Shown here piece by piece: positions 6,654-37,595 of a DNA stretch of 64,000 bases (positions are counted from its first letter, which is position 1; every line of letters begins with the position of its first letter). Below the pieces are notes generated by a model. That model ran no database searches. It saw only the letters and a program-made list of their open reading frames with translations, and was not told the origin of the DNA. Position numbers and translations under genes: made by a program. The stretch comes from Pseudoscleropodium purum (taxonomy: Eukaryota > Streptophyta > Bryopsida > Hypnales > Brachytheciaceae): the NCBI GenBank assembly GCA_963969395.1, contig OZ017795.1, positions 15,190,001 to 15,254,000 on the forward strand. Direction: 5' to 3'.

Positions 6654-8740
6654 ATGGGAAGGGCTCCAATTTCAAGTAGGGTATCCGAAAGAGGTCTGAA
6701 CAAAGGGCCGTGGACTGAAGAGGAGGACGCCATTCTGACTGCCTTCATCAAAGCGAACGGAGAAGGGAATTGGCGCACTCTCCCCAAACTAGCAGGTATT
6801 GCAATGAAGATGATCCGAGTTTTAATTCCACAAATGCGCAGTCAGCTTGATTACATAATTGAATGTATCCTCCAATAATTGGTCAATCGTAGTGTAGATA
6901 GGGGTTGCTTGCAGTGGTATCTAATGGAGGTTGACTGCGTGGTTGAATTGCAGGGTTGCAAAGATGTAGGAAGAGCTGCAGGCTACGGTGGATGAATTAC
7001 CTGCGACCCGATCTCAAACGGGGCAATTTCTCGCCTGAAGAGGATGAGCTGATCGCCAAATTACACTCTCTGCTGGGAAACAGGTACTGCATCTTCCAGA
7101 TTCGACCACACCTCTAGCTAGCAAACCATGGCCACTTTCGGAAGCTTAAATCATGGTTGGTTCTTCATAGAACCCATAATCAGCTAACCGTCTGTATGAG
7201 AGTGATTACAAGAAACACTTGTGCTATGCTGATCTCATAGGTTGTGTGTTAATCCAATTTTCAAGAATTTTGCAGTAGTGATCCTACATAGCCCAAAAAT
7301 TTAGTGAAAGATTGAAGGGCTCATCACATCTCCCGTTATACTTCATGATTTGCAAAATAATCTTGTGTACAAACAAAAATGTGCTAAATTTCCACATTTT
7401 CGAGTTCCATGATTTGGAGTACTTTGAGTACTAAAATTATGAAATTCCGAGACTTGAAATTTTGAGAGTAAGTTCTTCTACTAAGCTTAATTAGCCATAA
7501 GAAGTATCTGAAATAGATTTCCGTGCACATGCATTTCCGTGCACATGCATTTCCGTGCGCATGCCTTTCAACACAATTGAAAGACAAATTTTCACTGCCT
7601 AATTCTTGATAGTAAATTCATCTCAGTATCCTAGAGATTTATTGAATACTCGATCATCACAGAGTTAAATCTTCTAATCGCTGATTACAATCTTTTACAT
7701 CTTACGAAAAAATCATTATCTATTTTTACAATACTCTTAAAAAAAATATCGCGGTATCCATGTTTAGGAGGTGCAATGCTTGCAAGATGTTGCAACCGAG
7801 TCAGAAGGATTGGTATTGGAGCAGGGCGGCGGTTGAGCCGCACTGATCGTTCACTAATGTGATATACTAATGAACAGTATTAGCATACATCCATGAGGGA
7901 TGAGGGATGAGAAGTGATAACTGCGGTTTCTATTGCTAGCAATCAAAACGTACGCAAGGAACAGTACAAGCAGTACAATTGTAATCTTGCAATCGTATCC
8001 GTATCTCAAAATGACCTAATCTAACAAACTCCGGGTGTATAATGTGCAGGTGGGCATTGATAGCAGGTCGCATTCCAGGCCGCACAGACAACGAGATCAA
8101 AAACTACTGGAACTCTCGTTTGCGGCGAAAGCTCAACACCAAGTCAGGCGATCAAGTCACAGCCACACCACTGTCCTTCTCAGCTCTGGATTCAGCCTTG
8201 AATTCAGCCTTGCAACCGAGCTCCAGTAACACCACAAGATTCGCCTCTGAAGCAACTGCAAACCCAAACCCGGGCGCCTCTTCATTTCCCGAATATGCTG
8301 AAGACCTAGCGGCGTCCTCATCACTAGAAGTCTCCGTGTTCTCCGAATACGCCAGATTCCAACCCCCCTGCGAAGCCACTCCATCGGAGCCTTGTAGCAG
8401 CGAAGGGACAGCTTGTTTAGACGATTGCTCCGATCACCAGTCACTGGAAGCAGGGTACTACTCTACCTGGTCGACATCTGTTGCGAATGAGACTAGCGTT
8501 GCAGACGACTCCGTGAAGCATGAATCGTCGTATGCTTACTCACCCGAGAGTGTCTTGACACAAGGACTAGATTCAGAAGATGATTTCTTGTGCAGTGACT
8601 TCAGTAGCTTCACCAATGGCTTGGCGGATCTCGGGGACACCAGTTTCCAGATGTTGCTGCAGTTGATGTCGATGCCGATGTCTCCGTTGCACAAAAACCT
8701 GGTGCCTATGTCGTGGCCAGCCGATGCCCTCTGGTCATAG
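6654..8740 (+). CDS. R2R3-MYB transcription factor (3 exons)
   Basis: A nuclear DNA-binding regulator of 320 aa. Exons: 6654-6795, 6954-7083 and 8050-8740, with GT-AG introns in phases 1 and 2 at the classical R2R3-MYB positions. R2 (about residues 17-67) has Trp at 20, 40 and 60. R3 (about 70-118) has Phe73, Trp92 and Trp111; Phe in place of the first Trp is normal for plant R3. Residues 79-98 fit the bHLH-interaction signature [D/E]Lx2[R/K]x3Lx6Lx3R (E79, L80, K83, L87, L94, R98), so a partner in a MYB-bHLH-WD40 type complex is expected. The ~200-residue tail is Ser/acidic and probably activating; I do not see a named subgroup motif. The start at 6654 gives MGRAP, a common MYB N-terminus. 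Flavonoid or pigment control is inferred from the bHLH motif only. The gene looks intact. Confidence 0.93.
7517..7564. repeat. 16-bp triplicate inside MYB intron 2
   Basis: Three consecutive copies of ATTTCCGTGCACATGC (the third has one change, GCGCATGC) lie in the 966-bp second intron of the MYB gene. Each unit contains alternating-purine GTGCACATGC or GTGCGCATGC. Confidence 0.9.
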
Positions 8741-12650: not shown

Positions 12651-15249
12651 TAACTTGAATCATATCAAAAATCTAGTTATAAAAACCAATATACTAATAG
12701 TGATATTACCTACACTAATTGATTTAAAAACTATTATAAGATTTTGCTTTTGTGAATATTTTACCGACTATATATATATATTAGTATTGATATCTATGCT
12801 CTTGGTAAATATATTTATCACATACAAGAATTTATTGCATTTATAAATCATTTAGTGTAATAGTTTTAAATATAATTACTATTATATTTGGTATGTTGAA
12901 TAGCCTCAATTGCACAAGCAATAAAAGAACGCCCTTATTTTTGTAATCCAATCATCTTAATTGATTTATAATCAAAGAGGTAGAGTTGCTTTTGAAATGG
13001 TGAATTAAAAGTCAAAGTAGAAAGTTGAACAAAAAAATTAGCAATCACTATAAGCAAGAGGTAATGCAAAGTAAAAGAATGCTTTGAAATTTATAAAACT
13101 TAAGAAATATGAAGAGCTATGTACACTTGAAACTTTCAATTCAAATAAAAGACTCATATGGAGAATACTTTTGTACATTATGGGAATAAAAGTGTACAAC
13201 TTTTGAATTTTCCAAAGTTTTGTCAAGCTAGACTATTGATGTAGACTTGAAGCAAATTTTAGGGACCCTTGTGCCAAATGTCCCTTAGTCAATCATTTAA
13301 AAAGAACTCACTAGATGAGATGTCATGTTTTAGTAAATATACTAAAACAATAGAGAAAATATTTTGTGGACCCTCTTTAAGTTACACTACCACCAAAAAC
13401 CTTCGGATCTCTTAAGACAAAGGCAAGCGATGGATCTTTAGAGGTTTTGTGCAAGGCTTCTCATTTATTGTAGTTGAATAGTTGATGTGCAATAAACTAT
13501 TTCATCTTCACATGGCTCTTTATTTGGCAACAAAAAACATACATAAGGTCAACTTTGTTAAATAGGCGATATTCCACAAGGCAAAAATTGAAACACATAT
13601 CTTCTTATAGGACTAATTTCTAGTCAAAACTAGGATAGATGTAGATTTTGGTTTCAGCTTGCTCAACCTAAATTGTACGAAAGTCATAAAATCTTTCCAA
13701 TTTAACATGTTTAAAATAACATAAAATTATTTGTTTGTTGTCTAAAAATATTACTATAAATACCTACCATATGTATGAACTTGTGCAAAATAAGTAGTGT
13801 AGAATTGCTAGTAGCCAAAAAATCAGTCATACTGTAGTATATGACTTCAAGGTAACTAGAAATTTCAAAGCTGGTTGAATTCGTTGAGAATGGTTTCATT
13901 ATGAGAGCCAAAGTGTGAGAAGCTCAAGAAAGAAACTTGGAACCAGTTAGGAGCTTGAAACTATGAAGAAGGTGTGACACCCCATTTTTGCTATTTGGAG
14001 AAGGAGTATTGAGAATTGGAAAAGGATGTTTGACAAGGTATGTAGCATGAAGTTGTAGAATGCGCAGGAAATGTGGAACACATTATGAAGGCACAAATGT
14101 GACAAGATGGAGCTAAAAGGAATATACTGAAATAAATAAAAAATTGTTCATGCTGATATACACCTCTGGAACAAAATAACAAGTGCTGTGAAAATTTCGC
14201 AGAAATGTGGTAGAAGCTCAACAGGAAGCCAATGTGGAGCTGCCCCATGCACGTTCTTTGGAGAATGCTCGAGTAGTGAAGAAGATGTGACTACCCCTAA
14301 TATGCAATTGATATTTAATTGGGTGACAAAAATTCCACCAATTTTCTTTAAGCTTACGTACTGGGAAGGTTAAATTCAGCTAGTGAAATCTGCCATCTGA
14401 CAAATATGAGGATAAAGTCTGTGCCAGAGTAAGAATGCCAAAAAGGCCCAAGAAGCATAACATGAGGAAGACTCCCAAGTATAATCTAATCTGACATCAG
14501 AAATGTCATCTCATGAAGCTACAAGAGAAAGTTAAAGTACTGAACTTTCAATGGATAAAACAAGCTTAAATTAAAGATGCCCGCTGAAGAAACGTGCATC
14601 AACTTTGAGCTGATCTGCAGTCTCAAAGAAATATTACTTCCGTATCTCTACCACATAAAAGCAATCTCTTCCCACATAAACTTTACCTCCATTTTCCAAA
14701 ATAGTTTAATGTATGCGTAGTCATGATCAGGTGTACTCACAGGGGAGTATTTAACATCATTTGATTCGCAAAGTTTCCTCACATTAGAAACAAAGTGGGG
14801 CCATAACAGGGCCTCGATATTGCAGCCCTGCCGAGTACTAATTTACAGCCTACCTGCTCTGCAAAATAATGGATGACCTGGACGATCATTGTCCAGCTCA
14901 TGTGGCTGATTAATGAGAGGGCTTCTTTCTGTTTTGTGATTTCTTTATTTGGCTATTCATTTGATTTACTGAGACTTGAGCACATTTGAGCGACTTGAAA
15001 ATTGTTGGGATCTTCACCAGTCTGCTTATAGTTTAGGGTTTATTGTACCTATTGGTTGCTTATTGTTTCAGGTTTGAGCCACACTAATAGTAATTCAGCA
15101 TGACATACGGTTAATCAACTTTTATTATTGAAAATTACTGGCATAATCAATCGAACATTTTTTACATGAGAATCATCACTCAGTTTGGTGGTCAATAGAC
15201 AACAATCAAGTCTTACTCAAATTGAAATATTAACCCCTGAAGAACAGTG

Positions 15250-16110
15250 ACTATGTTTTCACTGAAAACATTCAAAAACTGCCATTTTTAGTACAAGTAT
15301 AAAAATTTTGAATTTTTTTGACACATGTAACTGTGAAATCTTGTAGGATGTTGAATTGAGAACATGTGCTAAGAATTTCAGAAATTTCCACTGCTTGGAT
15401 TGCAAGATATAAGCATTCAAATTTACCAAAATCATTTTTTGACCTTGCAAAGAACAAGGTAACTACACTTCACAAGCTCACTTTTCTATGAAAAAATATC
15501 CAAAATGATGGTGTTTCTTTGAAAATTCTTTTTCCTAGACAAGTTGGCCACATGCTTGAATATTCTTTGGATCATTTGAAATTGCACAACATATACGAAA
15601 AAAATAGTAAGTAGACAGTAGTAGAGAATGATTTAAAATATTAAATTGTTAAGAATTCAATTATGGGATTGAAAATGCCCATCCCAATGGTTGCAATGTT
15701 ATAATAAATAATCTACATCCTATGATTTTAATTTTTCCAAAAATAGTGAAAATTGAGTAAGATAAAGGACTTCAAAGTTTTTTTAGAATAAAAAATCCAT
15801 ATTGGCCACAAACAAAAAAACTTCATAACATTTGATTCATTGCTAAAAATGGAATGACTCAAAACTTTCCATATAAATATAAATTTGGAAAATCAATTTG
15901 AAATTTTTATTTCTAAAAAAAATGATTATTCCTTATCTACCTAAACTGCCCATTTATGAAAAAAATAACTTATTAGATCATTTCTTTTGATTCATATTCC
16001 ATATGTAACCAAATTTAGTGCATATGAAAGATATTCCTTGTTCCCACCTTCTACTAAAATTTTAGCCTAAAAATGAAAATCTCTAGTCACATATACTGTA
16101 CACACTCCAA
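15250..16110. repeat. Dispersed repeat inside duplication copy A
   Basis: This ~0.86 kb AT-rich segment matches 31620-32450 in inverted orientation. Shared phrases include TATAAGCATTCAAAT, ATCCCAATGGTTGCA and GTGACTAGAGATTT (one strand or the other). It occupies a gap in the A/B duplication alignment, so it arrived after the duplication. A more diverged relative may lie at 62690-63150. No coding capacity. Confidence 0.75.
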
Positions 16111-17559
16111 AATTCTATGTTGCCAAAATATGCATGCTAGTCCTTTAGGGGTTAAAGTTCCATGTAAAATAAAAATAAAAAACTTAAAAAATTCTTTTAA
16201 TGGCAGTTGAACTGGCAGAGAAAAACCTGAAATGGCGGGAAAGATGAAGAATCTGATCAATAAGAAAATGGAGTGAAAGCTGAGCCTATCATATTGCACT
16301 TAAGAGCATCTTGGGCAAAGAATTTAAACTTTTGCTTCTAGCCGCTTGATTTTTGAATCGTGCTCTGATCTGGACTGTCCATGCAAAGATTTGTGCTGTC
16401 CGCCTTTGGGTGAAAGCAAATTCCCACTCAGATTTTCAGAAAGCCATACGGCCTTCTGATGGCCCCACTTTGCTCCTAATGCTACATTTCTGCAGCTTTC
16501 TACTCATTAAAATGAGGTATTTCAAAGCTCCAAAATCGTAACATTCATGTGCGCAAAGCTCTGAAAAACTCACTCACATAAATCTGAGGTTCCTAGTTGG
16601 CATTTGGAAATTAAACTTGGGCCCATTCTTAAATTTTGACATTTCTTGAAATTTGACAAGGAAAGCTCTGACCTGAAGACTGGCATGAATAAAGAGCCTA
16701 TTTGGGGAAAAATCTTAGACAAACCATCAACTTCGGTTTCTCTTTTAGAGTAGAACTATGAGTGGTCGAAAATTCTTTCAGGCCATAATTACATGGAACA
16801 AATAAGAATATCAGAACCGGCTTCGGGAGATTATATTTGGGAAGAAGTGCAAGTTTCAATACCGAGAAGCAGAACATAAGTTAAGAACGCCCAACCATGA
16901 ATTCAATTATGCAATTAGATCAGATCAAATGATGTCGACTAGCTTGGGAAAGTAAGAACGCTCTCAAATCTGAGCTTCTCATTGTAGTCTAAGATATATT
17001 ATGCATTCAAAAAATAACATCAGCCTTGGCCAAAATCACAGTTTATCTCGAAGTTAAATCATCCACAATGAGCTCCATGAGCTTGAATTAAGTCCCAACC
17101 TCCTCTTTTCCACATCTCTTCTTTAACAGAATCACACCAGATACTCCGTTCAGGGTATTTCATGTCAAAACTTTGCAATCCGTATCGCCAGCTCTTGCAT
17201 CGTATTCAATACTCGCCATTAATTGGAATCATTTGCAGAATTTTCTCCACTTCATTTCAACAGTCCGACAGGTCTGTTGCATCCCACAACGACATCGTCA
17301 GCTTCTTAAGAATCAAAGACAATGTACCAATTATGCAATTAAGTTATAAGGCCCCCAGCTTGTAATTTCTAGAGAATGAGCTTCTGGACTTCCACATGAA
17401 CTTTCCAAATAGCAGTCTGATAACGATCTGATGGAGTGCCCATTCAGATAGTGAGGAAATTGTAGAATAGCTGTAAACCCTAATCAGTCAATATGTATAC
17501 ATGGTCGGATTAGGGATGGACAGGAAGTCCTTACTCACCTTTTACTGAGATGGCGATCT

Positions 17560-17740
17560 CAGCATTGGTAACATTGCTCGATCTCCAACACTTGGACCAA
17601 GTCTCGAGCAGTCACCTTCGTGTTTTTCACCAGCTACTTGTGCCTTGCGGTCTAAGGAAGACACCAAACGCAAGCACAATTCGCCCAAACCAGCTGTGGA
17701 AACTCCAGAAAGCTCAACCAAATGGACCACCCTGAGCAGC
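17560..17740 (-). other. Reading frame preserved in both duplicates, 3' of the TIR gene
   Basis: The block aligns with 34600-34775. On the minus strand both copies keep a frame through LGELCLRLVS and DRKAQVAGE; on the plus strand both keep TKRKHNSPK and end at the same stop. The only length change inside is 3 nt. In copy A the minus frame runs into GGTGAGT, a good splice donor on the same strand as the lectin-TIR gene. It may be an unrecognised exon, or simply conserved flank shared by descent. Confidence 0.25.
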
Positions 17741-17944
17741 TAATGGACGGAAATTCTGAAATTTGGAATCAATGGTTACCTCATGAGGCAGGAAAACTCA
17801 ATCATATTTGTCAAAATGGAGGATTTCAATGAGATTGGCACTGTTTCAACCACTCAACTGAAACATCATATTCACATCAATCTTCTTTTCCAGAGCTGTG
17901 GGTGTCAATTTTTTGGCGCTCTAGACCCATCATTCACAGGGAGG

Positions 17945-18646
17945 TTATCCTTGCTTCCTTACGTTAATAAGAAAAGTATTTTGTTTGAGGAACGAGGGGA
18001 ATAAGAGAAGCAGCAGCTGGGAAAATTCAGTGTCACAAATCAGGGGAACTAGAGTAGTACTCCCTGAAGTCAAGGTGGTTAAAATCACAGGAGGGATTGT
18101 CATTCCCGGCTTACAGTAACTAGGAATACAATAGGTCTTCACAGCCCCGATAAGGTACGATGCAAAGCTCCTCTTTTTGCTCAGAATTTCATTTACTTCC
18201 TTACAGATTGTCTTGATGTAGTCATTGTCTTTGTCGCGTCTCTCATAACCGTATGGAATACCTCTTTGTTGGCAAAGCCAAGTCACTGCTTGTCTACACT
18301 TCTCCACCTGGAGAGGGTGATTGCCCTTGCTCATGTCCTCCCAACGACCTTCCCAAGTTTTTTCAACCAGATGAGCCCTGACTTGTTCTGGTGAGAGCTC
18401 GTAGAACAGAGGCAATACTCGAATTCTATCCGTAGGATTGTTCATCTGAGTTTCCACAAAAGCGATCAACTCTGTCATAGGCCACTTCGCTACAAAGAAA
18501 GCATTGGTCACCACCACGACCCCCACATCAAATCTTGGTAATTCTCGTAAGATTTTCTTTGCAATTGATTTGCCCATTTCAACATCTTGTGTGTCAAAAA
18601 AGATTCTGACACAAGACTTGGCAACGGACCAGGGCCATGCCCTCAT
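17945..18646 (-). CDS. TIR domain of copy A
   Basis: Plant-type TIR. The frame also stays open upstream of the Met at 18646, adding RPLRIFISHAG (strand A). Visible blocks: RIFFDTQDVEMGKSI (BB-loop region), VGVVVVTNAFFVAKWPMTEL, whose Glu59 occupies the position of the catalytic Glu of plant TIR NADases (the W-x-x-x-E-L block), and RVLPLFYELSPEQVR, the equivalent of the family's VxPxFYxVxPxxVR. Known TIRs of this type hydrolyse NAD+ to make immune signals; that this one does is inferred. It reads about 40 residues past the copy B stop because of one missing T. Confidence 0.82.
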   Translation of the reverse strand: MRAWPWSVAKSCVRIFFDTQDVEMGKSIAKKILRELPRFDVGVVVVTNAFFVAKWPMTELIAFVETQMNNPTDRIRVLPLFYELSPEQVRAHLVEKTWEGRWEDMSKGNHPLQVEKCRQAVTWLCQQRGIPYGYERRDKDNDYIKTICKEVNEILSKKRSFASYLIGAVKTYCIPSYCKPGMTIPPVILTTLTSGSTTLVPLICDTEFSQLLLLLFPSFLKQNTFLINVRKQG

Positions 18647-18654
18647 TGTTCCAT

Positions 18655-19059
18655 CTAGCCAAGTTGGAAAGTTCTTGTGAGATCCATCTGAACCACCTGC
18701 ATGGGATATGAAAATACGTAGAGGACGCTCCCAAATCTAAACCAACAAAGTGAAACAATTATGCAGATAATCATTCCAACAGACACTATAAGCGATACAG
18801 GGACTCCCACAGGTATCCATAGGTTCCTTTTCTTCCCTGCATTCTTTGCAATTGTTGAAGGTTCGCTACTGGGGCCTTGAGGAGGAACACTTAATGGTGG
18901 TGTATTGGGAGCGTTGAAAGGCGAAGGATTTGGAGCCCTTAAAGGCGGAGGATTGCTTGCTGGAGGTGGAGATGGACTTGAAATATCAGGTGGAGGACTT
19001 GGTATTGACGCAGGTGGAGGCAGTGATGGAGCAGCAACAGGACCATCTGATGATGACAT
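18655..19059 (-). CDS. Pro-rich linker and transmembrane segment of copy A
   Basis: The frame begins with about 65 residues of Pro/Ser/Ala/Asn-rich, extensin-like sequence (PSLPPPASIPSPPPD and similar). A basic KNAGKKR follows, then a hydrophobic helix (VGVPVSLIVSVGMIICIIVS). The last ~29 residues are a shifted reading of what should be the TIR start, caused by a missing base near 18726. Its initiating ATG is probably not a real start: an acceptor-like CATCATCAG sits there, so this is most likely an internal exon of the lectin-TIR gene. Confidence 0.65.
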   Translation of the reverse strand: MSSSDGPVAAPSLPPPASIPSPPPDISSPSPPPASNPPPLRAPNPSPFNAPNTPPLSVPPQGPSSEPSTIAKNAGKKRNLWIPVGVPVSLIVSVGMIICIIVSLCWFRFGSVLYVFSYPMQVVQMDLTRTFQLG

Positions 19060-19389
19060 GACAAATCACAACACGACACATACGTGTCTCTACACTAGTA
19101 GCTAATTGATTATTCATTAACCAACATATACACACAAATATTAGAACTCATGTGTGCAAATTCACAGTCTATTGACAAACATGATATGTAGTTACATGGA
19201 ATGTGATTACTAATATGTAATATAAGCATTCGCAACTAAAATATGAAGTATTATAGATACACACATTTCATGAAATGAAATGTGTCTGCGCTACAATAAA
19301 AGAGCTGCATGCATTCTTTGTAGACCTAAACATAAGCACCATAACTAATCAATCACACTGATCCTATACATAATATTGTAACTAATATA

Positions 19390-20187
19390 TCATGTTGATC
19401 CAAAATTCATGATGACCAAGGTGATACATGTCGTGAACCAAAACCTTAAAATCATGTTGAAAATTCCAAGCGTTTGTGAGATGGTGCTGGGTGGAGACAT
19501 ACTGGGTGAAGGTGAAGGAGTAACTGGGGCTGGAATTGCAGGAGTTACTGGAGGTGGAGGTGCACCTGGAGTTGCATCCTGGGCAATAACAATTGGTGGC
19601 GCTAGAATGCCATCGTTGCTGAAGCTCCATGCGCAAACATAAGGAATATTGCTACTTTCTATCCCCTTTGCAGTTGAGGAACCAATGTACATGCTCTCCT
19701 TCAGAAGCGATAAGTTTAGTCCACTTTGTGATCCTTGTGGCTTAGCAGGCTTGTCTTGTTTGTAGTTTGCGTAGTAGATATCCATACGAGAGTCAGCTTC
19801 AAAATAATCAATCCAGATTTGTTGGTATATAATGACACTGCTTGAAGCCAAGCTAGAGACTGGCTTAATAGTATAAGTAGAGTTCATACTGGCCAAGTTA
19901 ATACCAATATGATTCTCATTGGGATCGTTGAACTCCGGGTTCATGAAGGTGTCCAATTCCACACCAAGGATATGGTTATCGGATTCATAATTCTTTGCGG
20001 TTTCGGAGGTTCCATTGGTTATAAGTCCCATGAAGTCTAGGGGAGCTCCTATGGTGACGTTGTCGGGAACTATAATGAAGGCCATACCGGGCCCTGTATA
20101 ACCGTCATCAGACACAATCCGTAACTGATAGATGAATGAGGTACTGAAAGATTTTACCATTGTAGAACCAGGATCTATCATTTGCAC
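19390..20187 (-). CDS. Legume-lectin domain of copy A plus Pro-rich tail
   Basis: An uninterrupted frame in the same register as the 20451 start. Lectin hallmarks in order: KSFSTSFIY, GPGMAFIIVP, LGVELDTF followed by N and D residues of the usual metal/carbohydrate site region (FNDPNENHIGI), WIDYF and YVCAWSFSNDG, the usual C-terminal strand of L-type lectins. After residue ~205 it becomes Pro-rich (PGAPPPPVTPAIPAPV), like a cell-wall-spanning linker. If the downstream intron were retained it would end in a hydrophobic tail (ILRFWFTTCITLVIM), giving a shorter, possibly membrane-tethered lectin; that isoform is speculative. Confidence 0.75.
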   Translation of the reverse strand: MQMIDPGSTMVKSFSTSFIYQLRIVSDDGYTGPGMAFIIVPDNVTIGAPLDFMGLITNGTSETAKNYESDNHILGVELDTFMNPEFNDPNENHIGINLASMNSTYTIKPVSSLASSSVIIYQQIWIDYFEADSRMDIYYANYKQDKPAKPQGSQSGLNLSLLKESMYIGSSTAKGIESSNIPYVCAWSFSNDGILAPPIVIAQDATPGAPPPPVTPAIPAPVTPSPSPSMSPPSTISQTLGIFNMILRFWFTTCITLVIMNFGST

Positions 20188-22518
20188 CGCGCCAGGATAT
20201 AAAAATCAACCAGAGAAGTTGTACCACGAATTTGAGTTTGGAGGATTGAAGTACAAACAACCAGAAGTGATGTCGAAAATCTAGCTGCTATCAGACACTT
20301 GGTGTTCAAGAGAATTCTCCTCGAAGCCGCTAAAGCCGAAGGTGACAGCCCCGACACTGGATATACATGGTAAGATCAGAAGGGCCAGCATACCCAAATA
20401 AAACACGCGAGTCCCAGCCAGAACGATGGCCAATCTTGAGGAGTTGCCCATGATGAAACTGTGTGAACTAGCTGGCAATCTTCTCAGTCTGTACATCATA
20501 CACAAAGAATCTCATTAGTGGGTTTTCGTTACATTCTGTGATTCTGGGCGTCAAAATTTGTAACATGTATCCATCCAAAGCTCTCAATACTAGCACTGGT
20601 GTAGAGTTATGATCAGGCCGCGATGCTTGGAAGTGCCTAGGCAGACTTGGAATTTTTCCAAATTAACAAGCACGACATTTTTGCCACAAAATTCAGAACT
20701 AGACAAGCGGGATTAGCCAGATAGCTTCCATCCTTTCGCAAGCAGACCACATGCGTAAGAATACTTTACACAGAAGAGAACAAATCACTATTTTAAAATT
20801 GTTACATTTAGATTCTGACATATATATAGTAAGATGTGAGCTTCTAGACTTCAAATGGAATAAATGGTATTGACTTTAGTGTTTTACTAAACTTAATATT
20901 TATGATAATTCTATTTGATTTGCAAGTTTCGACAAGTACAAAGATACTTCTTTAGTACTAATTAGTTGTGCATTATGATTAGTGATCATTTGAAATAATA
21001 GTTTTTTTTAGTTTTAGATCACTTAATGGTTGTATCTGGAGATGAAGACAACATGACATTTGGAAACAATCCTTTTATAAATTTGGTACTTAAGGTAAAT
21101 ATGAATTATTAGTTTCCTAATTCATACTTGATTATTTCATAAGTGATATTGTAGTACTTAAATTAGTACTTACTTCATTGTAGTTTTTTTTGAAGCATCA
21201 AAGACAAAAATAACAATGAAGTAAATTTCTATTTGTCAAGGGTTCAATTTTTATTATATATTACATTAGTTTTGTTTTTCTCTACAAAACAAAAATAGCA
21301 CTATTTAAAAATAGTAAGAGATAGAGGATAATTTGGTATTGCATTTTATCAAAAGCCTTCTTTTTCAGTTGCTATTCCATTTTGAAAAGTAGAATTTCTA
21401 ATGAAATTTATGATATATTATTGACTATTTGACTAATTGAATTAGTAGTTGTGATATAGAGTATTAGAATCATGTAGTGTAACAATATAGATTTTTTTGT
21501 CTTTGATCTAGCTTTCAATTTATATAATTGGAATCTAGATGAAAAGACTAAATAATGTGATTTTCTAATTGATTTTAGTGGTTGGGGGAAAAAACATGTT
21601 GGAGTGGAAGTAGAGAAATTTGACCCCACTAATGGAGAGGTATCCACTTTTAAAGTTCATCGCAATAAGACACCAATAATTAGTAATAGGTCTCTTTCAA
21701 AAACAAAAACAAATAGATTACTAACATGGGCTACATATACTTGAGAAACATGTCCCTAAAGACCCAAATCTACTAAAGTTGTTCATGAGCATCTTCTTGT
21801 AGGGCTTTAAATTAATCTATGTAAGTGGCCCATATTTCTACAACTAGATAAAAGGCTATTCATAAATCAAGATTATAGAAATTGTACATATTAATCCTTA
21901 AATATTCTTTTATGTTCAAAAATTGAGTTCAAAGTTAAAACATATATATTTTTGAAAAAAAAACCCTTTGGTTTTCACCTTGTAAATGTTTGTTTAAGTA
22001 GATATAGGCACTAGATAGAAATAAAAACTAATTGGTTAATGATTCTTAAATGAAATTAAAAGATACTACTCCCAATGATGATGAGATTGTTCTAGCAAAA
22101 AAACTAAACTATGTGGAATATTTTTTGAATTTATTTGAAAATTGAGTTAAAAAATGAATCTTGTAAATATTTTTTGGAAGAAGATGCTCTAATTTCTCCC
22201 AAAACATGAATCTCTTCATCACTTTCTCACCACTAGTGCAAGTAGAATGAATTGAATCTTTCCATATGCACAAGCATATTTTCTTTAAGAACCAAAATTA
22301 AGACTTTTTGGCTCACCTAATGGATTCTATTTTGAGCTTAGTTGCATAACTTTTTCTCCCATGCACCAATTGAAATAAAATTATGTCCACATAAAGCTAA
22401 TGTATTTTTTTATCTTCAAAAAACCTAATTCAAAATTAAGATCATATAATACTACCGAAACTCTCATTCATCTCCCAAGGAGACAAAAGGTCCTTTTGTG
22501 GTTAAATAATTATTTAGT

Positions 22519-24851: not shown

Positions 24852-25547
24852 TCATCCTATTAAATTACACATGGCTTGCCCAGCATTCGCCATACTGGCC
24901 GCCATCTGTTGTGTCATATACAGCTGCATCTGCAACTGCGCCGGCGTCATCATCGTCACACCCTTCTCCGAATCGTCCACCCCACCAGTAGGAGCTGCAT
25001 CTGGATCCGGACACTCCGCATGCAAATCGAAGTCACACATCGCACAATTATAGTGCAGTCCACGCGAGATGCCCCCCTTGCACACATCGCATATTTTGAA
25101 ACACCCAGGTGCTAGTTTGAGGAGCTTAAGGTTGTGTTTCAGGTGGCTCGGGTGTCGGATGGTCCTTGCCATCTGCGCACACTTGGCGTGCACGCCGTAA
25201 TCGCAGTTGTCGGCGCATTTGTACGACCACCTGGAGTTTTTCTTATGGAAGAGCTCCGTGCACGCGTCGCAGGTGCCCCTGCCCTTGTACAAGTCGTACC
25301 AGTAATTTTCAGGGGTGAGAACGAGCTTGTGTTCGGGGTGGTGGAAAAATTTGATCTCGTGTTCTTCCGGGTGCTCGTCTTGGGGGTCGGAATCGGGAGG
25401 GGATTCGTGGGAGATTTCGAAGGAGAGAGAGAATTTGCTGACTTTGTTGCCTTCTCCGTTGCCGAGGCCGCCGTCAAAGAGAACGCTGCCGTCTGGTTGC
25501 GTAGAGAGGCCCCCTTCAATCTTCATATCACTGTGTGCATACAGCAA
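24852..25547 (-). CDS. DC1 (divergent C1) zinc-finger protein
   Basis: 231 aa. An acidic, disordered N-terminus (residues 1-65) is followed by two C1-like zinc modules. Module 1 covers about 70-123 (HPEHKLVLTP, then C93, C96, C111, C115, H120, C123). Module 2 covers about 132-179 (H132, H138, C153, C156, C168, C171, H176, C179). The tail is Met/Gln-rich (PAQLQMQLYMTQQM). DC1 proteins are plant-specific and mostly uncharacterised; binding of zinc is expected, and roles in stress or hormone responses are known for some members. The start at 25547 is used; Met at 25526 is an alternative. A possible acceptor (GTATGCACACAG) lies between them, so an upstream exon is possible. Intact, apparently single copy, and it lies between the two lectin-TIR duplicates. 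Confidence 0.85.
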   Translation of the reverse strand: MLYAHSDMKIEGGLSTQPDGSVLFDGGLGNGEGNKVSKFSLSFEISHESPPDSDPQDEHPEEHEIKFFHHPEHKLVLTPENYWYDLYKGRGTCDACTELFHKKNSRWSYKCADNCDYGVHAKCAQMARTIRHPSHLKHNLKLLKLAPGCFKICDVCKGGISRGLHYNCAMCDFDLHAECPDPDAAPTGGVDDSEKGVTMMTPAQLQMQLYMTQQMAASMANAGQAMCNLIG

Positions 25548-26175
25548 ATGCGTCAGTGGAAGTCATGAGCCCATACGAATTCGACGTCAGTTTTGAACTC
25601 AATCAGAACAAAAGATGAGACACAAACTTTTAATTAGCACCTAGAGATGGGACGCTTTGCATCTCAAGCCATTTGGTGCTTAAGATCAGGATGCTCGACT
25701 TTAAGCACAGGTTTATAGGATTAATTAGGGGATGAGTTCAATGGAAGTTATTGAGCCCACATCGTCAATGGCGTTAAAGTAATGGGGCCCCGGCGACAAA
25801 AGTTGTAACACAAATCTATACATTAGCTCTAAAAACTAGGAGTAGTATGAACTAAGGTTTCATGCCATGAGAAGCTGTTACAAGTAAAAGTTGATACCAA
25901 GATTTAAAGGAGGATGCAAGTTCTAATGCAAGCCCGAGTAATTGCAGAAGAGCAGTGTCTCGAAAACATTACTCGAGAGCGGAAATACAGAGCATTTACG
26001 AGAACCAAAGATCAAAGTGCATGAACAAACGCCTAGGATGCACTTGGTTAGGGCGAGGAGACTGACTTGATCCATTTACAACAGGGCGTGACTCGGGGTG
26101 TGAGCGCTGTGGGAACAAGGTAATTGAGGTGTAAGGTTTGGGTGGTTCAGCGTCACTTTCTTCTTTGGAACAGCG

Positions 26176-30240: not shown

Positions 30241-31619
30241 AAAAATGCTATAAGTTCTTACACTCCATGAATATTTTTACCAATTACATTCATCAAAATC
30301 CTTCTCTTTAATTAGTATTAGGATCTATGCTCTTGGTAAAAATATTCATCACATATAAGAATTTATTGAATTTTTAAGTCATTCAATGGATGTAACTTTA
30401 AATATCAATACTCTAAATATCATTACTAGCATACTTGTTATAGTGAACAACTTGAGTTGCACGAGTGGTGAAAGGGTACCTTTGTTTCATAATTCAATCA
30501 TCTCTGTTGATTTATAGTGAATGAAGTAGAGTTGGGTTTGAAATGGTGAACCAAGAGTCAAAATAGAAAGTTGAACAAAGGAACTAGTAGTCAAACGGTG
30601 CCCTTACACCTCTTCAAAATCTAAACTTATTGAGACCCTCATTACACTACAAGTAATAAGTGGGTTGTGAATAAAAAGTTTGTAGTAAAAGAGCATCAAA
30701 ATTTCAAAAGTTAAAAAACATGAAGAGCTACATTTTAGATTTTAAATTCATTAGAAAGACTCATATAGACAACACTTTTGTCCATAGGGCAATAAAAGTG
30801 TACAACTCTTGAATTTTCAAAAATTACATCAAGCCCATCTATTGATGTAGACTTGAAGCAAATTATGGGGCTCCTTGTTCCAAAATCCAAATAGCTCATA
30901 ATCCATCATTTAAAAAGAATTCACTTAGTAAATTGCGTTATTTTTAAAATATACTTAAAAATATAGAAGATGCTATAGTAGAAGGCACTAGGCGTTCATT
31001 AGAAACAATGTGATTTCATACACAAGGGTCCAATTATTAAATTCAAATAACAATTCAAACCCAATTAATTTTTAAAATAGATTTATGAAATATAGTATTA
31101 CAGGTATTATATATAAAATAAAGTATTAAGCAAAGTACATGTTTGAAAATAATTATATTTTATATAGGGGTTATATGACTTAGGATTTTTTCCCAATTTA
31201 CTTTATAGAAGTAGGAAATCATATGGTGTTAATTCTTAGGATTTCTTATTACGTGACTATGAGGGTTGGCTATAAATGCCTAGAATTATATGTATAAGTT
31301 TTGTATACATAGAAAATGACCTTAGATAATTTGGACATTTGCATTGTCTATTTTCTATCTTTGGGGTTGTCTATATCCTTGGTGTCACTTTTGGTAATGG
31401 CAATATAGCATGTTATAGTACCAAATATATCTAGATGTGCAATGTCTACAAATTTGTAGTTATCTACTAGTTTGAATTTGCATACATGAATATGCAAGCT
31501 TTTCATCTAAGAAGAACTATAACAAGCATACACCTACATGTATGATTCTCCAAAAAAAATTAAATGAATTCCTAAGGGACCAACATGTGTTTTTTGGCTA
31601 CATAGTAATTTTGGACAAG

Positions 31620-32450
31620 TACATGTGACTAGAGATTTCCATATTTTTGGCCCAATTTTTAATAAAAAGTGAGGGAGCTCAAGGATTATCTTTTATATGC
31701 ACTAAATTTCATGACATTTGGAAATATGAGTAAAAAGTTATGGCCCAATATGTTAATTTTTTTCATAAATGGATAGTTTGGGCAAATTAGAAAAAATCAC
31801 TTCTTGTAGAAACAAAATTTTGAAATTGTTTTTTTGGAGTTTCATATTTGTAGAAAGCTTTGAATCATCCCATTTTGATCAAAGAGTCAAAAGTCATGAG
31901 GATTTTTCGTTTGTAGATAGTTTTGGATTCTCTATTCTAAAGTAAACTTTTAAGTTGTTTATCTTACTCAATTTTCCATATTTTTGGAAATAAAATAAAA
32001 TGATAGGATGTAGATTGTTTAATACAACACTGCAACCATTGGGATTGGCATTTTTCAATTCTATAATTAAATTCTCTATAATTTAGTATTTTGAGTCATT
32101 TACTACTTTCTACCTATTATTTTTTTCCCTATATGTTGTACAATACCAAATGATCTAAAGATTTGCCTTGGAGAATGAATCCAAAGAAGCACGACTGTTT
32201 AGACATTCTTTCATAGAAAAGTGAGCTTGCAAGGCCAAAAAATGATTTTAGTAAATTTGAATGCTTATATCTTGCAATCCATGTGGTGGAAATTTCAAAA
32301 GTTTTACCACATGTTCTCAAGTCAGCACACTATAAGATCCTACAGTTGCATGCATCAAAAAAAGTTTCTTGTCCAAAAATTTGGTACTTGTACTTAAAAT
32401 GGCAATTTCGAGCATTTTTTGTGAAAACATAGTCATGGAACTTTAGGGAT
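31620..32450. repeat. Dispersed repeat inside duplication copy B
   Basis: Inverted relative of 15250-16110. It sits at a different point of the duplicated unit from the repeat in copy A, so two members of the same family inserted independently after the duplication. AT-rich, non-coding; the right edge is near GAACTTTAGGGATTAAG. Confidence 0.7.
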
Positions 32451-33740
32451 TAAGCGCAAGGTGCCACAAATTAGAGGGTGCTAGATTATTACCTAACAAT
32501 TGGGGTTCTTTAATAGCACCAAAAAAATAATACCCCTATACTAATACCTTAGTGTACTCACATGCTTCCAAAGTTGAATAAGAGGTGCCTCCCTCATGGC
32601 AGCTACTTGAGGTTACTTTCAATGGCCCTTTCCTTTACACTACCTTCAAAAGCCATGATCTTCAAAGACTAATACAAGCCCATGGACCTTGAGAAATTTT
32701 GTGCAAGGAAACTCAATTAAGTTACTGTGTGATACTAGTACATAATAAACTATTTCATCTTCATATGGCTCGTTGTGTAAAAAGAAATAGCACTATAAAT
32801 ACCTACCAAATTCTCAAATCTGTAGAGTAAAATTGCGAGCAGCCCAAACTTCAGTCCTACTATACTGTTCAGGATAACTGGAAATTCCAAAGGTGGTTAA
32901 ATTCGTTGAAAACAGCTTCATCATGAGCACCAAATTGTGTGATTTCCAAGATCCCAGCTCCGAAAAGTAGGAGTGGCATGGATACGAAGTTCACGGCAAT
33001 TGGATGACGAAAATTCTGCCAATTTCACAAGGTTATTGGGAAGTCAAATTCAGCTAGTGAAACCTGCCATCTGACAAATATGAGGATAAAGTCTATGCCA
33101 GAGTAGGAATGTCAAATGTCCTCTAATGAAGCAGAACATGAGGAAGACTTACAAGTATAATTTTTTCAGATATCAGAAATCTCCTCTCATGAAGCTACAT
33201 GAGAAGGTAAAGTATGGCACTTTCAATGGAGATAGCAAGCTCAAAATAAAGATGTCCTGAAGAAACGTGTGCCAACTCTGAGCTGATCCGCAAGCTCAAC
33301 CAAATATTACTTCCCCATCTCTACACATAAAGCAATCTCTTCCCACAGAACCTTAACTCCACTTTCCAAAATCTTTTGATGGACTCGAAGTTACGATCGG
33401 GTGTACTCGCAGGGGAGTATTCAAGCATGTCTGCATCATTCGACTGGAATACGATCGGATGGTTTCCCTTGGTAGAGATCTGAGTTCATGCCTCTTCCAA
33501 AATTCCTTGCCTCGATCAGACCATGGTCAAGTACTCAAAATCGTTAAAATCACGCATTTGAGAGCTCCAAATTGTGGCATTCGCGTGCACAAAGCTCTAA
33601 AAACTGAGACTGATATACATCTGAGGTTCCGGTTGGCATTTGGAGATTAAGCTTGTGCCCATCTTTTGATATTTGACATTTTGAGAAATAGTATGAATAA
33701 AGCTCTGACCAGAAGACTCGTATTAATAGAGAGCCTATTT

Positions 33741-33759
33741 GGTGGTGGTGGTGGTGGTG
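33741..33759. repeat. (GGT)6 microsatellite
   Basis: Six GGT units plus one base, lying between GAGCCTATTT and GCGTGAAAATCT. The duplicate at about 16700 reads GAGCCTATTTGGGGAAAAATCT, so the array arose in copy B after duplication. Confidence 0.9.
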
Positions 33760-35179
33760 CGTGAAAATCTCAGACGAATCATCAACTTCGGTTATTCTTT
33801 TAGATAAGAACTACCAATAGCCAAAACGCCATAATTTCATGGTACAATTATGAATATCAGAACCCGCTTCAGGAGATTGTATTTGGAAGGCAGTGCAATA
33901 TTCATTACCGTGAAGCAAAAACAAAAGAACGCCAAACCATGAATTCAATTATGCAATAAGATCAGATCAAATGATCTCGACTAGCTTCGGGAAGGTGAAA
34001 GCGCTCACATCTGAACTTCTCAATGTAGAAGACATGTTGAGCACTTAAAACACATCAACAATGGCCAAAATTACAGTTTATATTTTAGTTAAATAACACG
34101 CAACGAGCTCCATGAGCTTGAATTAACTCGCAACCTCCTCTTTTCCACCTCTTCGAACAGAATCTTACCAGATACTCCGTTCAGAGTATTTCATGCCAAA
34201 ACTTTGCAATCCATATCGTCAGCTCTTGCATCGTATTCAATACTGGCCACTAATTGGAATCATTTGCAGAATTTTCTCCACTTCATTTCAACAGTCCGAC
34301 AGGTCTGTTGCATCGCACAACCACATGGTCAGCTTCTGAAGAATCAAAGACAATGTACCAATGCAATTAAATAATAAGGTCCCCAGCTTGTATTCTCCTG
34401 AGAATGAGCTTATGGACTTGCACATGAACTTTCCTGCTAACAGTCTGATAACGACATGATAAAGTTCCCATTAAGTTATTGAGGAAATTGTAGAATAGCC
34501 TTAAACCCTCATCAGTCAAAGATGTGTGCATGGTCGGATTAGGGATGGACAGGGAAGCCATTGTTCACCTTTTTCTGAGCTGGTGATGTTAACATTGATA
34601 ACATTGCTCGATCTGGAACACTTGGACTATGTCTCGAGAGCAGCTCCACCTTCGCCGCGTAATTCGCCAGCAACTTGTGCCTTGCGGTCTAAGCAAAAAG
34701 ACACCAAACGCAAGCACAATTCGCCCAAATCAGCTGTGGAAACTTCAGGAAGCTCAACCAAATTGACCACCCCGAGAAGCTAATGACCGAAAATTCTGAA
34801 ATTTGGAATCAATGGCTACCTCATGAGGCTGGAAAACTCAATCGAATACGTCGAGATTCAGGATTTCAATGAGATTGACGCTGTTTCAGTCCCTGAACTG
34901 AAATGTCAGATTCCCATCAGTCTTACTTTCCATTGCTCTGGTTGTCACATTTTTTTGGCGCGCTGGAACCCATCATTCACAGAGAGGTTATCCTTGTTTC
35001 CTTACAGGAAATATGAGAAGTTTCCAAGAGTACTTCGTACGAGGAACGAGGGGAATAAGGGAAAAGCAGCAACTCGGAAAATTCAGTGTCACAAATCAGG
35101 GGACCTAGAGTAATACTCCCTGAAGTCATGGTGGTCAAAATAGGAGGGTCATCTCAGTTTAGCGGATTGTCATTCTCGC

Positions 35180-36052
35180 TTAACAGTAACTAAGAATACA
35201 ATAGGTCTTCACAGACCCGATAAGGTACGATGCGAAGCTCCTCTCTTTGCACAGAATTTCATCGACTTCCTTACAAATTGTCTCGATGTAGACTTTGTCT
35301 TGATGGCGTTTCCCATAACCGTATGGAATACCTCTTTGTTGGCAACACCAAGTCACTGCTTGTCTACACTTTTCCACCTTGAGAGGGTGATTGCCCTTGC
35401 TCATTTCCTCCCAACGACCATCCCAAGTTTTTCCGACCAGATGAGCCCTGACTTGTTCTGGTGAGAGCTCGTAGAACAGAGGCAATACTCGAATTCTATC
35501 CGTAGGATCGTTCATCTGAGTTTCCACAAAAGCGATCAACTCTGTCATAGGCCACTTCGCTACAAAGAAAGCATTGGTCACCACCACGACCCCCACATCA
35601 AATCTTGCTAATTCTCTTAAGATTTTCTTTGCAATTGATTTGCCCATTTCAACATCTTGTGTGTCAAAAAAGATTTTGACACGAGGCTTGGCAACGGACC
35701 AGGGCCATGTCCTCATTCTTTCATCTAGCCAAGTTGGAAAGTTCTTGTGAGATCGATCCGGACCACCTGCATGGGATATGAAAATACGTAGAGGGCGGCT
35801 CCCAAATCTACACCAGCAAAGTGAAACAATTATGCAGATAATCATTCCAACATACACTGTAAGCAATACAGGGACTCCCACGTGTATCCCCGGGTGTTTA
35901 TTCTTCCCGTCGTCTTGGGCCAGAACAATTGATGGCGCTGGACTGCCATCGTTGCTGAAGCTCCATGCGCAAACAAACGGAAGTCCGAAACCTCCAAAGT
36001 TGTAACTTGCAGATGAGAAACCAATGAACATCTTTTCCTTCAAAAGCGACAA
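35180..36052 (-). CDS. Uninterrupted lectin-end / TM / TIR frame of copy B
   Basis: A 290-codon open frame that directly proves the fusion. Residues 1-44 are the end of the lectin domain (FVCAWSFSNDG). Residues ~56-80 are the transmembrane helix (VPVLLTVYVGMIICIIVSLCW). Residues 88-~270 are TIR. TIR landmarks: RIFISHAG (89-96), KIFFDTQDVEMGKSI (126-140), KWPMTEL with Glu171 at the catalytic position, and RVLPLFYELSPEQVR (188-202). The cytoplasmic side follows the helix with CRFGSR. The true start lies upstream in the frameshifted lectin; an internal Met at residue 8 could start an N-terminally truncated TIR protein. The best-preserved TIR unit in the window. Confidence 0.83.
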   Translation of the reverse strand: MSLLKEKMFIGFSSASYNFGGFGLPFVCAWSFSNDGSPAPSIVLAQDDGKNKHPGIHVGVPVLLTVYVGMIICIIVSLCWCRFGSRPLRIFISHAGGPDRSHKNFPTWLDERMRTWPWSVAKPRVKIFFDTQDVEMGKSIAKKILRELARFDVGVVVVTNAFFVAKWPMTELIAFVETQMNDPTDRIRVLPLFYELSPEQVRAHLVGKTWDGRWEEMSKGNHPLKVEKCRQAVTWCCQQRGIPYGYGKRHQDKVYIETICKEVDEILCKERSFASYLIGSVKTYCILSYC

Positions 36053-36735
36053 ATCTTTTTGATCCTTGTAGGCTTGGTTTCCTTATAGTTTGCAATGTAG
36101 ATATCCAGACGAGAATCGGCTTCATCATAATCAATCCAGATTTGCTGGTATTTGCTTGAAGCCAAGCTGTAGGCAGGTGTAAACGAATAATTAGATTTCA
36201 TACTGGCCAAGTTAATGCCAATATGATTATTGTTGGGATCGTTGAATTCTTGTAGGTGTCCAGTTCCACACCTAGGGTGTGGTCATCAGATTCATACTTC
36301 TTCCCGGTTTCGGAGGATATAAGTCCCATGAAGTCTCCGGGAGCTCCTAAGGTGACGTTGTGAGGAACTATAATGAAGGCCATACCTGGCCCTGTACCCC
36401 ATGGTTCGCTCAAGGCGATAGATGAATGAGGTACTGAACGATTTTACTGTTGTGGAACCAGGACCTATCATTTGCACGGCATATGGATAGAGAAGTCGAG
36501 CAGAGGAGCCGAAGAAACTCACTTCTGCAGGATTGATTAGGAAACAACCAGTGGAGGTTTGGAAAAACCAGTTGCTATCAGGCACTGGGTAAAAGGAATT
36601 CTCCTCGAAGCCATTAAAAGCGAAATTGACAGCCCCGACACTGGAATCACATGGTAAGTTCAGAAGGGCCAGCACACCTAAGCAAAATAGGCGAGCTCTA
36701 GCCAGAACGATGGCCAATCCTGAGGATTCGTCCAT
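35180..36735 (-). pseudogene. L-type lectin - TM - TIR receptor, copy B (lectin frameshifted)
   Basis: The start at 36735 gives a signal peptide (LAIVLARARLFCLGVLALL) and mature N-terminus VNFAFNGFEENS, typical of L-type lectins. Compared with copy A, the lectin domain suffers three length changes: -8 nt near 36400, -7 nt near 36250 and about -16 nt near 36065. Reading passes through frames 0, 2, 0 and 1, although each segment still reads as lectin (GPGMAFIIVP, LGVELDTY, WIDYDEADSRLDIY). From about 36052 the frame is clean through lectin end, TM and TIR. The long Pro-rich linker and intron of copy A are absent; a ~20-residue spacer replaces them. No full-length product is possible without frame correction. 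Confidence 0.8.
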
Positions 36736-37595
36736 GATGAAGGTCTGAAGTACTCACAACTCAAACTTGATCTCCTTGTGAACTTGGTAGCAGTCTTCTA
36801 AACCTGCATCATATACCACGTTTTCGCATTTGTGCGATTTCGTTAAATTGGCGTCATTCTGGCGCAAAAATTGCGGCTTATAACTATGCAAAGTTTAAGA
36901 ACTAGCCCACATGTAGATTCATGGTTTCAGGTCTGAAAGTGCCGAGGCAGTGAAACACCGACAAAGTAACAAACTTGACATTTCTACCGCAGTTCAGACC
37001 TAGACAAGCAAGAGTTGCTAGCTAGCGACCATCTTTTTGCTAACAGACCACATGCGTAACTTCACTTTGCACAGATTTTCAACCACTTGAGACTAAACGT
37101 ACCGAACCACAATTTCGCACGGGGAAGGGAGACAGGGAATTCACACCAATTCCCTTTGTCAAGATATAACAGGGGAATTTGGAAAATCTGATGTGCAATT
37201 ACAGGGAAATATGAACGATTCACTTGTGGTCTCCCTTCCTTCCTGGAGGATCGACCTAGCATAGATCCTGATTTCTAACACAGAATTCAAGAAGTGAAAT
37301 AGAAAAGTGCGACCGTATGAGCAAAAGCAGACTGAATCTAAGTTAAACTTGCAGTCAAGCTTGTATATTTCAACGACTTAATTTGATTTACGTATACGGA
37401 AGATGTCAGGCCCGCGTGCCAGACTGTCAGCGGAACTGCCGGTACCATTTTTAACATATCGACTGTAGCTAGATTCGCTTCATGCTTTCCAAAACTTGAA
37501 GCGAATCAAGTTGAAGAAGATTTCCAACAGTATGATCGAAGTCATGAAACAATTAAGTGAAATAACGTACTTACACAAATCGATAAGAAAACAGA

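Follow-up and report, generated by a model that had tools for sequence, protein, structure and literature searches.

Described systems closest to a putative lectin-TIR receptor

In plants, sensing at the cell surface is held to run through kinases, and TIR domains are held to act inside the cell. In animal Toll-like receptors, an ectodomain of leucine-rich repeats (LRR) is followed by a transmembrane (TM) helix and a cytoplasmic TIR. Here we describe genes of Pseudoscleropodium purum (Bryopsida; Hypnales) in which a legume-lectin domain, a TM helix and a TIR follow one another. Two decayed copies lie in a 64,000-nucleotide stretch of DNA (the window; assembly GCA_963969395.1, contig OZ017795.1, positions 15,190,001 to 15,254,000), and an intact gene lies on contig C43. 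With moderate confidence, we read them as a small plant gene family with an intact member at least on C43 and decayed duplicates in the window; its proteins would have a predicted secretion signal, an ectodomain of the legume-lectin type, a TM helix and a TIR carrying an NADase-type Glu, and TIR signalling is proposed for them. On sequence grounds, a Toll-like receptor design looks real in this plant; the likeness is one of design only.

L-type lectin receptor kinases possess, in the same order as this family, a signal peptide, a legume-lectin ectodomain, a linker and a single TM helix; however, a kinase follows the TM helix there, whereas the TIR follows it directly here. The TNL, TN and TIR-only proteins of plants share a plant-type TIR with a Glu at the same place, but the lectin-linked TIRs form a separate clade, sit after a TM helix and are accompanied by no NB-ARC match. 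The TIR-Nictaba chimerolectins (Arabidopsis PP2-A5 and its kin) also combine a lectin and a TIR in one plant protein; their lectin, in contrast, is of the Nictaba/PP2 type and C-terminal, their TIR is N-terminal, and the ectodomain-TM-TIR order was not found in the available parts of the two reports (PMC12355970, PMC5485960). A soybean sequence of the arrangement GNA-S-locus-PAN-TIR-NB-ARC-LRR likewise has a signal peptide, a lectin and a TIR in one predicted protein, but its lectin is of the GNA type, NB-ARC and LRR follow the TIR, and the excerpted description mentions no TM helix in between (PMC6272470).

No legume-lectin-TM-TIR protein was found in the open-access literature searched, a scope that excluded supplements, subscription papers and plant protein databases and included passages of PMC4131498, PMC7282519, PMC12856790 and PMC12512272 that were checked by term. 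A survey of plant lectins in 38 genomes (PMC6362431) does not use the term TIR in its main text; a survey of surface receptors in 350 genomes uses it twice, namely in “TIR-NLR” and in a reference (PMC10834447).

An intact gene and two decayed copies

The open frame of the second window copy (copy 2) was used as a query against its own assembly (313,191,705 bases, 52 contigs) and gave 67 matches. The best match outside the window, C43:10651411-10652901, is a single uninterrupted exon with a 503-codon open frame (497 codons from the ATG), which encodes a signal-peptide-like start, the lectin, a short linker, the TM helix and the TIR, and ends soon after the TIR. Over the 496 residues scanned, this one protein passes the curated Pfam cut-offs for Lectin_legB (59.1 bits; cut-off 26.3), TIR_2 (29.1 bits; cut-off 28) and TIR (25.6 bits; cut-off 21.3). 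Its hydropathy peaks at 2.23 at the start and at 2.39 before the TIR; signal peptide and TM helix are assigned by hydropathy only. Signal peptide, ectodomain, TM helix and TIR are thus held in one intact frame, which neither window copy achieves. The 5' flank and the coding start of the first window copy (copy 1) match C43 DNA, with identities of 81% over 106 bases and 88.5% over 122 bases.

Copy 1 runs on the minus strand from 20451 to 17948 and comprises a hydrophobic N-terminus, a legume-lectin domain, a Pro-rich linker with one inferred intron, a TM helix and a TIR, as follows.

19503..20451, minus strand: exon 1, with signal-peptide-like start, lectin and first Pro-rich stretch (translation, splice-site reading, Pfam Lectin_legB)
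20281..20283, minus strand: in-frame TAG in the lectin (translation)
20206..20208, minus strand: in-frame TGA in the lectin (translation)
19047..19502, minus strand: inferred GT-AG intron, phase 1 (splice sites, G+C; DNA common to two C42 loci)
18728..19046, minus strand: start of exon 2, with Pro-rich linker and TM helix (translation, hydropathy)
18754..18810, minus strand: TM helix (hydropathy peak 2.73)
18113..18727, minus strand: TIR, one base off the TM frame, the open frame continuing to 17948 (translation, Pfam)
18470..18472, minus strand: Glu codon at the catalytic position (alignment to AT1G72930 and L6; coordinate counted from the translation)

The N-terminus of copy 1 is signal-peptide-like in its hydropathy and translation, and the Lectin_legB match at 20205-19501 is strong (E 9.1e-37, 127.3 bits). 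The TIR profiles match at 18736-17945 (TIR, E 1.5e-7, 31.9 bits; TIR_2, E 3.5e-7), preceded at 18810-18754 by the peak of the Kyte-Doolittle mean that marks the TM helix. The inferred intron begins with a GTATGT donor at 19502, closes with a CAG acceptor at 19047 and preserves the phase; its G+C content is 0.333 versus 0.448 and 0.473 in the two exons, and Pro-rich coding stretches flank it on either side. Because two in-frame stops interrupt the lectin and the frames of TM helix and TIR differ by one base near 18727, copy 1 makes no single protein: it is a pseudogene, and the locus as it stands is unable to produce a lectin-TM-TIR protein. The preliminary description of this DNA had placed a lectin-TM-TIR receptor here; the order of the parts holds by Pfam, hydropathy and the intron, but their encoding as one protein does not; the stops, the frameshift and the second copy had been overlooked.

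Read onwards into the intron (19501-19390), the lectin frame of copy 1 gives a hydrophobic tail and then a stop, and a similar tail occurs in a degenerate C42 locus (L012, 2243-2533). This tail could represent a lectin-only isoform that arises from a retained intron and is anchored in the membrane or by glycosylphosphatidylinositol (GPI), or merely shared intron DNA. A kinase remnant downstream of copies 1 and 2 was also considered and rejected, as about 4 kb of the minus strand, searched in three frames at E 0.1, gave neither a kinase nor an NB-ARC match.

Copy 2 lies within a direct segmental duplication, the blocks of which are collinear but not continuous and share 75-85% identity by self-BLAST.

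12780..20457, strand not assigned: segmental duplication unit (self-BLAST)
30311..36741, strand not assigned: the other unit (self-BLAST)
35183..36735, minus strand: copy 2, a pseudogene, with non-triplet gaps in the lectin and with linker and intron absent (translation, alignment to copy 1)
35183..36082, minus strand: 300-codon open frame with lectin end, TM helix and TIR (translation; Pfam TIR, 34.8 bits)
35825..35881, minus strand: TM helix (hydropathy peak 2.67; coordinate counted from the translation)
35540..35542, minus strand: Glu codon at the catalytic position (alignment; coordinate counted from the translation)

Compared to copy 1, the lectin of copy 2 has four non-triplet gaps of 8, 7, 8 and 8 bases, and a further gap of 735 bases removes the Pro-rich linker together with the intron. 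Copy 2 is therefore a pseudogene broken in a different way: its lectin end, TM helix and TIR share one open frame (36082-35183), and none of 20000 shuffles of these 900 bases was free of stops. The TIR score exceeds the cut-off of 21.3 bits. Since copy 2 has no stop at either codon that is a stop in copy 1, and since the lectin of copy 1 has no frame-breaking gap against that of C43, the gene was probably intact when it was duplicated, and the two copies would have decayed separately.

Relatives in the genome and kinship of the two domains

Further relatives occur on other contigs. C46 has a diverged frame of 282 codons, in which a lectin end of 24.7 bits, slightly below the cut-off of 26.3, is joined by a TIR of 38.8 bits (cut-off 21.3). 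On C45, the locus L011 combines a TM helix with an aberrant TIR-like stretch and additional hydrophobic segments. Two loci on C42, both degenerate, have DNA in common with the lectin end and the intron of copy 1, and a short match lies at C1:12482488-12482710. As the intact C43 gene is accompanied by these C46, C45 and C42 relatives in the same genome, the combination of lectin, TM helix and TIR is, on the sequences, not an accident of one locus, and the family of putative membrane TIR receptors is most likely small and largely decayed.

Some details of these loci are recorded for completeness. The C45 frame (L011, 1970-3322, minus strand, 452 codons) ends in a C-terminus of unrecognised kind after its TM helix, TIR-like stretch and additional hydrophobic segments. 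On the minus strand of L012 (C42:13902500-13911500), the usual order is reversed: a degenerate lectin end lies downstream of a degenerate TIR, in a layout like a decayed tandem array, and a kinase-like frame is nearby. Degenerate fragments of the same lectin, with stops and 52-67% identity, occur at C1:15164294-15164443, about 26 kb before the window, and at C45:3426838-3427115.

A maximum-likelihood tree separates the TIRs of copies 1 and 2, C43, C46 and C45 from 17 other TIRs of the genome by a branch with a support of 100/99. Besides the five linked TIRs, 20 further TIR regions were chosen by hand among the 67 matches; L047, L054 and L060 (no tblastn match) and L061 (frame without the TIR start) were left out, and L008 was added. 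The tree is flagged for long branches (L057, L058), and its “TNL” labels were assigned by hand, with NB-ARC-like text seen by eye for some only. Because the wording around the Glu is similar in the other TIRs of this genome, we take the linked TIRs to be one branch among the TIRs native to this plant.

The lectins of copy 1 and C43 also group together (100/100), apart from 16 other lectin loci of the genome, many of which read by eye, not by Pfam, as lectin receptor kinases. These 16 loci came from a protein-query search; the broken copy 2 and the too short C46 were left out, and the two degenerate C42 loci and C1:12482488-12482710 are in neither tree. At 23.15-23.37 Mb, C43 carries a cluster of single-exon lectin receptor kinase-like genes, the kinase again being read by eye. 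To judge by eye, this genome also has ordinary lectin receptor kinases; in the C43 gene, a TIR is present instead of the kinase. Further lectin receptor kinase-like clusters occur on C40 (L027-L030) and C44 (L031-L033); as their open frames stop inside the kinase, these genes probably have introns in the kinase, unlike the single-exon C43 cluster.

Features of the TIR domain and selection on the reading frame

The Glu of the copy 1 and copy 2 TIRs aligns with the Glu of the WCLDEL motif of AT1G72930 (PDB 3jrn) and with L6, in an alignment that reaches the C-terminal helices, which bears out the earlier claim of a Glu at the catalytic position of a plant-type TIR; the Glu is also present in C43, C46 and C45. 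Among PDB sequences, the best scores of the window TIRs are to bacterial TIRs, followed by AT1G72930, L6, Roq1 and RUN1. Only partial matches to bacterial TIR families were obtained with NCBIfam and PADLOC, those of NCBIfam far under the cut-offs. The AlphaFold model of the window TIRs is of low confidence (mean pLDDT 46), and a Foldseek search with it is uninformative: none of its matches reached E 0.001, and the 50 listed included no TIR. In prokaryote genome contigs, 31 pattern matches included no relative by tblastn, and in viral contigs there was no pattern match.

Across diverged members, the TIR is under purifying selection, with ratios of nonsynonymous to synonymous substitution (omega) of 0.34 (0.18-0.52) between C43 and C46, 0.42 (0.26-0.67) between C43 and copy 2, and 0.53 (0.33-0.78) between C43 and copy 1. 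For the lectin, omega is 0.61 (0.43-0.91) between copies 1 and 2. In the DNA alignment of the copy 1 and C43 lectins, all internal gaps (9/9) are triplets, and a single 1-base gap is terminal and stems from the slice ends. On the C43 branch, stops would be absent under neutrality with a chance of 0.057 in the lectin and of 0.009 in the TM-TIR part. Given the triplet gaps and these low chances, C43 has kept its reading frame; this is clear for the TIR but less so for the lectin.

Between the window copies, identity is 94% in the TIRs (18727-18113 versus 35797-35183), about 80% in the lectin and 86% in the 3' flank. Substituted sites number 37 of 614 in the TIR versus 117 of 853 in the 3' flank (p 1.6e-6), and gap events 0 versus 6 (p 0.044). 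Taken alone, the low divergence relative to the flank suggests that the TIR has been constrained since the duplication in the window. Against this stand estimates of omega of 0.81-0.84, with intervals that include 1, an equally low divergence at synonymous sites, and a chance probability of 0.19 that no stop has arisen in the TIR since then. We lean towards a gene-conversion tract rather than constraint, an explanation that is unproven. Synonymous divergence is unequal between the halves in both comparisons (lectin 0.31 versus TIR 0.72 between copy 1 and C43; lectin 0.33 versus TIR 0.07 between copies 1 and 2), which indicates that the histories of lectin and TIR differ; as to the cause, we can only guess at gene conversion or module exchange.

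A proposed surface receptor and its alternatives

In the proposed mechanism, the protein would enter the membrane through the secretory pathway, with its ectodomain outside and its TIR directly under the plasma membrane, in the position that the kinase occupies in lectin receptor kinases. There, the lectin-type ectodomain would sense a ligand from the cell wall or from microbes, ligand-driven clustering would bring the TIRs together, and the clustered TIRs would cleave NAD+ and start immune signalling. The sequences show the order of the domains, the intact gene, the lesions, the single clade of the linked TIRs and the purifying selection on the TIR, whereas expression, membrane location, topology, a ligand, NADase activity and an immune role are what we infer for the family. 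That plants have plasma-membrane receptors in which a lectin-type ectodomain is coupled directly to a TIR enzyme, as a class convergent with Toll-like receptors and represented in this genome by an intact member and decayed relatives, is a tentative proposal to which we give slightly less than even credence. The receptor architecture of the preliminary description survives at the level of the family, through the intact C43 gene and the related loci, but not for the window, as both copies there are pseudogenes. If the proposal is true, the surface-sensing and TIR branches would be united in one molecule, a single-pass receptor with a TIR at its end; one could then ask directly if the TIR enzyme can be activated by a ligand at the cell surface, a question made testable by the intact C43 gene.

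Several observations weigh against such a receptor. Only one complete lectin-TM-TIR gene was found in this genome. Compared to the copy 1 lectin, that of C43 has gaps of 18 and 87 bases, which remove most of the stretch with the putative metal motif of copy 1. This motif, present in the broken copy 1, we take to be the metal-ligand motif of legume lectins; as most of the metal loop is gone from the C43 lectin, sugar binding by the intact protein is doubtful. The hydrophobic segment of C46 is weak (1.38), and no lectin start was found in the 4 kb upstream of its frame. In C45, Pfam gave no TIR at E up to 1. Omega is 1.04 (0.73-1.50) for the lectins of copy 1 and C43, and 0.84 (0.42-1.98) for the TIRs of copies 1 and 2, which is not different from 1. 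Moreover, at its neutral no-stop chance, the open lectin of C43 alone proves little.

Much of this would also be expected of a dead or dying lineage, in which the fusion was functional in the past, or for a short time, and all members are relics that have decayed to different degrees: C43 (still open), C46, C45 and the window copies. In its favour, lesions are present in both window copies and in the two C42 loci, the C43 lectin lacks most of its metal loop and has an omega near 1, and its openness has a neutral chance of 0.057; however, the TIR ratios of 0.34-0.53 across diverged members, the chance of 0.009 for the open TM-TIR part of C43 and the nine triplet gaps out of nine in the lectin speak against it. 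We regard such a lineage as unlikely, though deserving of some weight.

Less probable still, and in our view quite unlikely, is a membrane-anchored TIR in which signal peptide, TM helix and TIR work and the lectin remnant is merely a spacer that senses no ligand through its fold. It would account for a TIR that is constrained beside a lectin that is not (omega 1.04), for the loss of most of the C43 metal loop and for the retention of only the lectin end in C46. Against it, the lectins of copies 1 and 2 give an omega of 0.61 (0.43-0.91), and copy 1 retains the putative metal motif. In addition, several lectin receptor kinases bind non-sugar ligands, according to PMC7606695, so a lectin without its metal loop might still sense a ligand.

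That the window holds two adjacent genes and no fusion, a lectin gene closed by the stop at 19390 and, from about 19059, a Pro-rich-TM-TIR gene, is hardly credible: the lectin frame of copy 1 does enter the intron and end after a hydrophobic tail like that of L012, and the Pro-rich frame does begin with an ATG, but the splice phase and G+C content fit an intron, copy 2 has lectin end, TM helix and TIR in one frame, and the single-exon C43 fusion, which joins all parts, contradicts separate genes. To an assembly or sequencing error behind the stops and frameshifts, with truly intact window copies, we give next to no credence, since only the single-base frameshift of copy 1 has that appearance, whereas its two stops are of the substitution type and copy 2 differs from it by gaps of 7 and 8 bases, so that these lesions are not single-base slips.

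Other genes in the window

Four further loci were recognized in the window.

6582-8740, plus strand: R2R3-MYB-like gene in pieces (Pfam Myb_DNA-binding)
24852-25562, minus strand: frame for a C1-domain (DC1-like) protein (C1_2, 57.9 bits)
42146-43147, plus strand: pieces of a DUF247 protein, the second above the cut-off (50 bits)
45120-46573, minus strand: exons of a receptor-like kinase (Pfam Pkinase)

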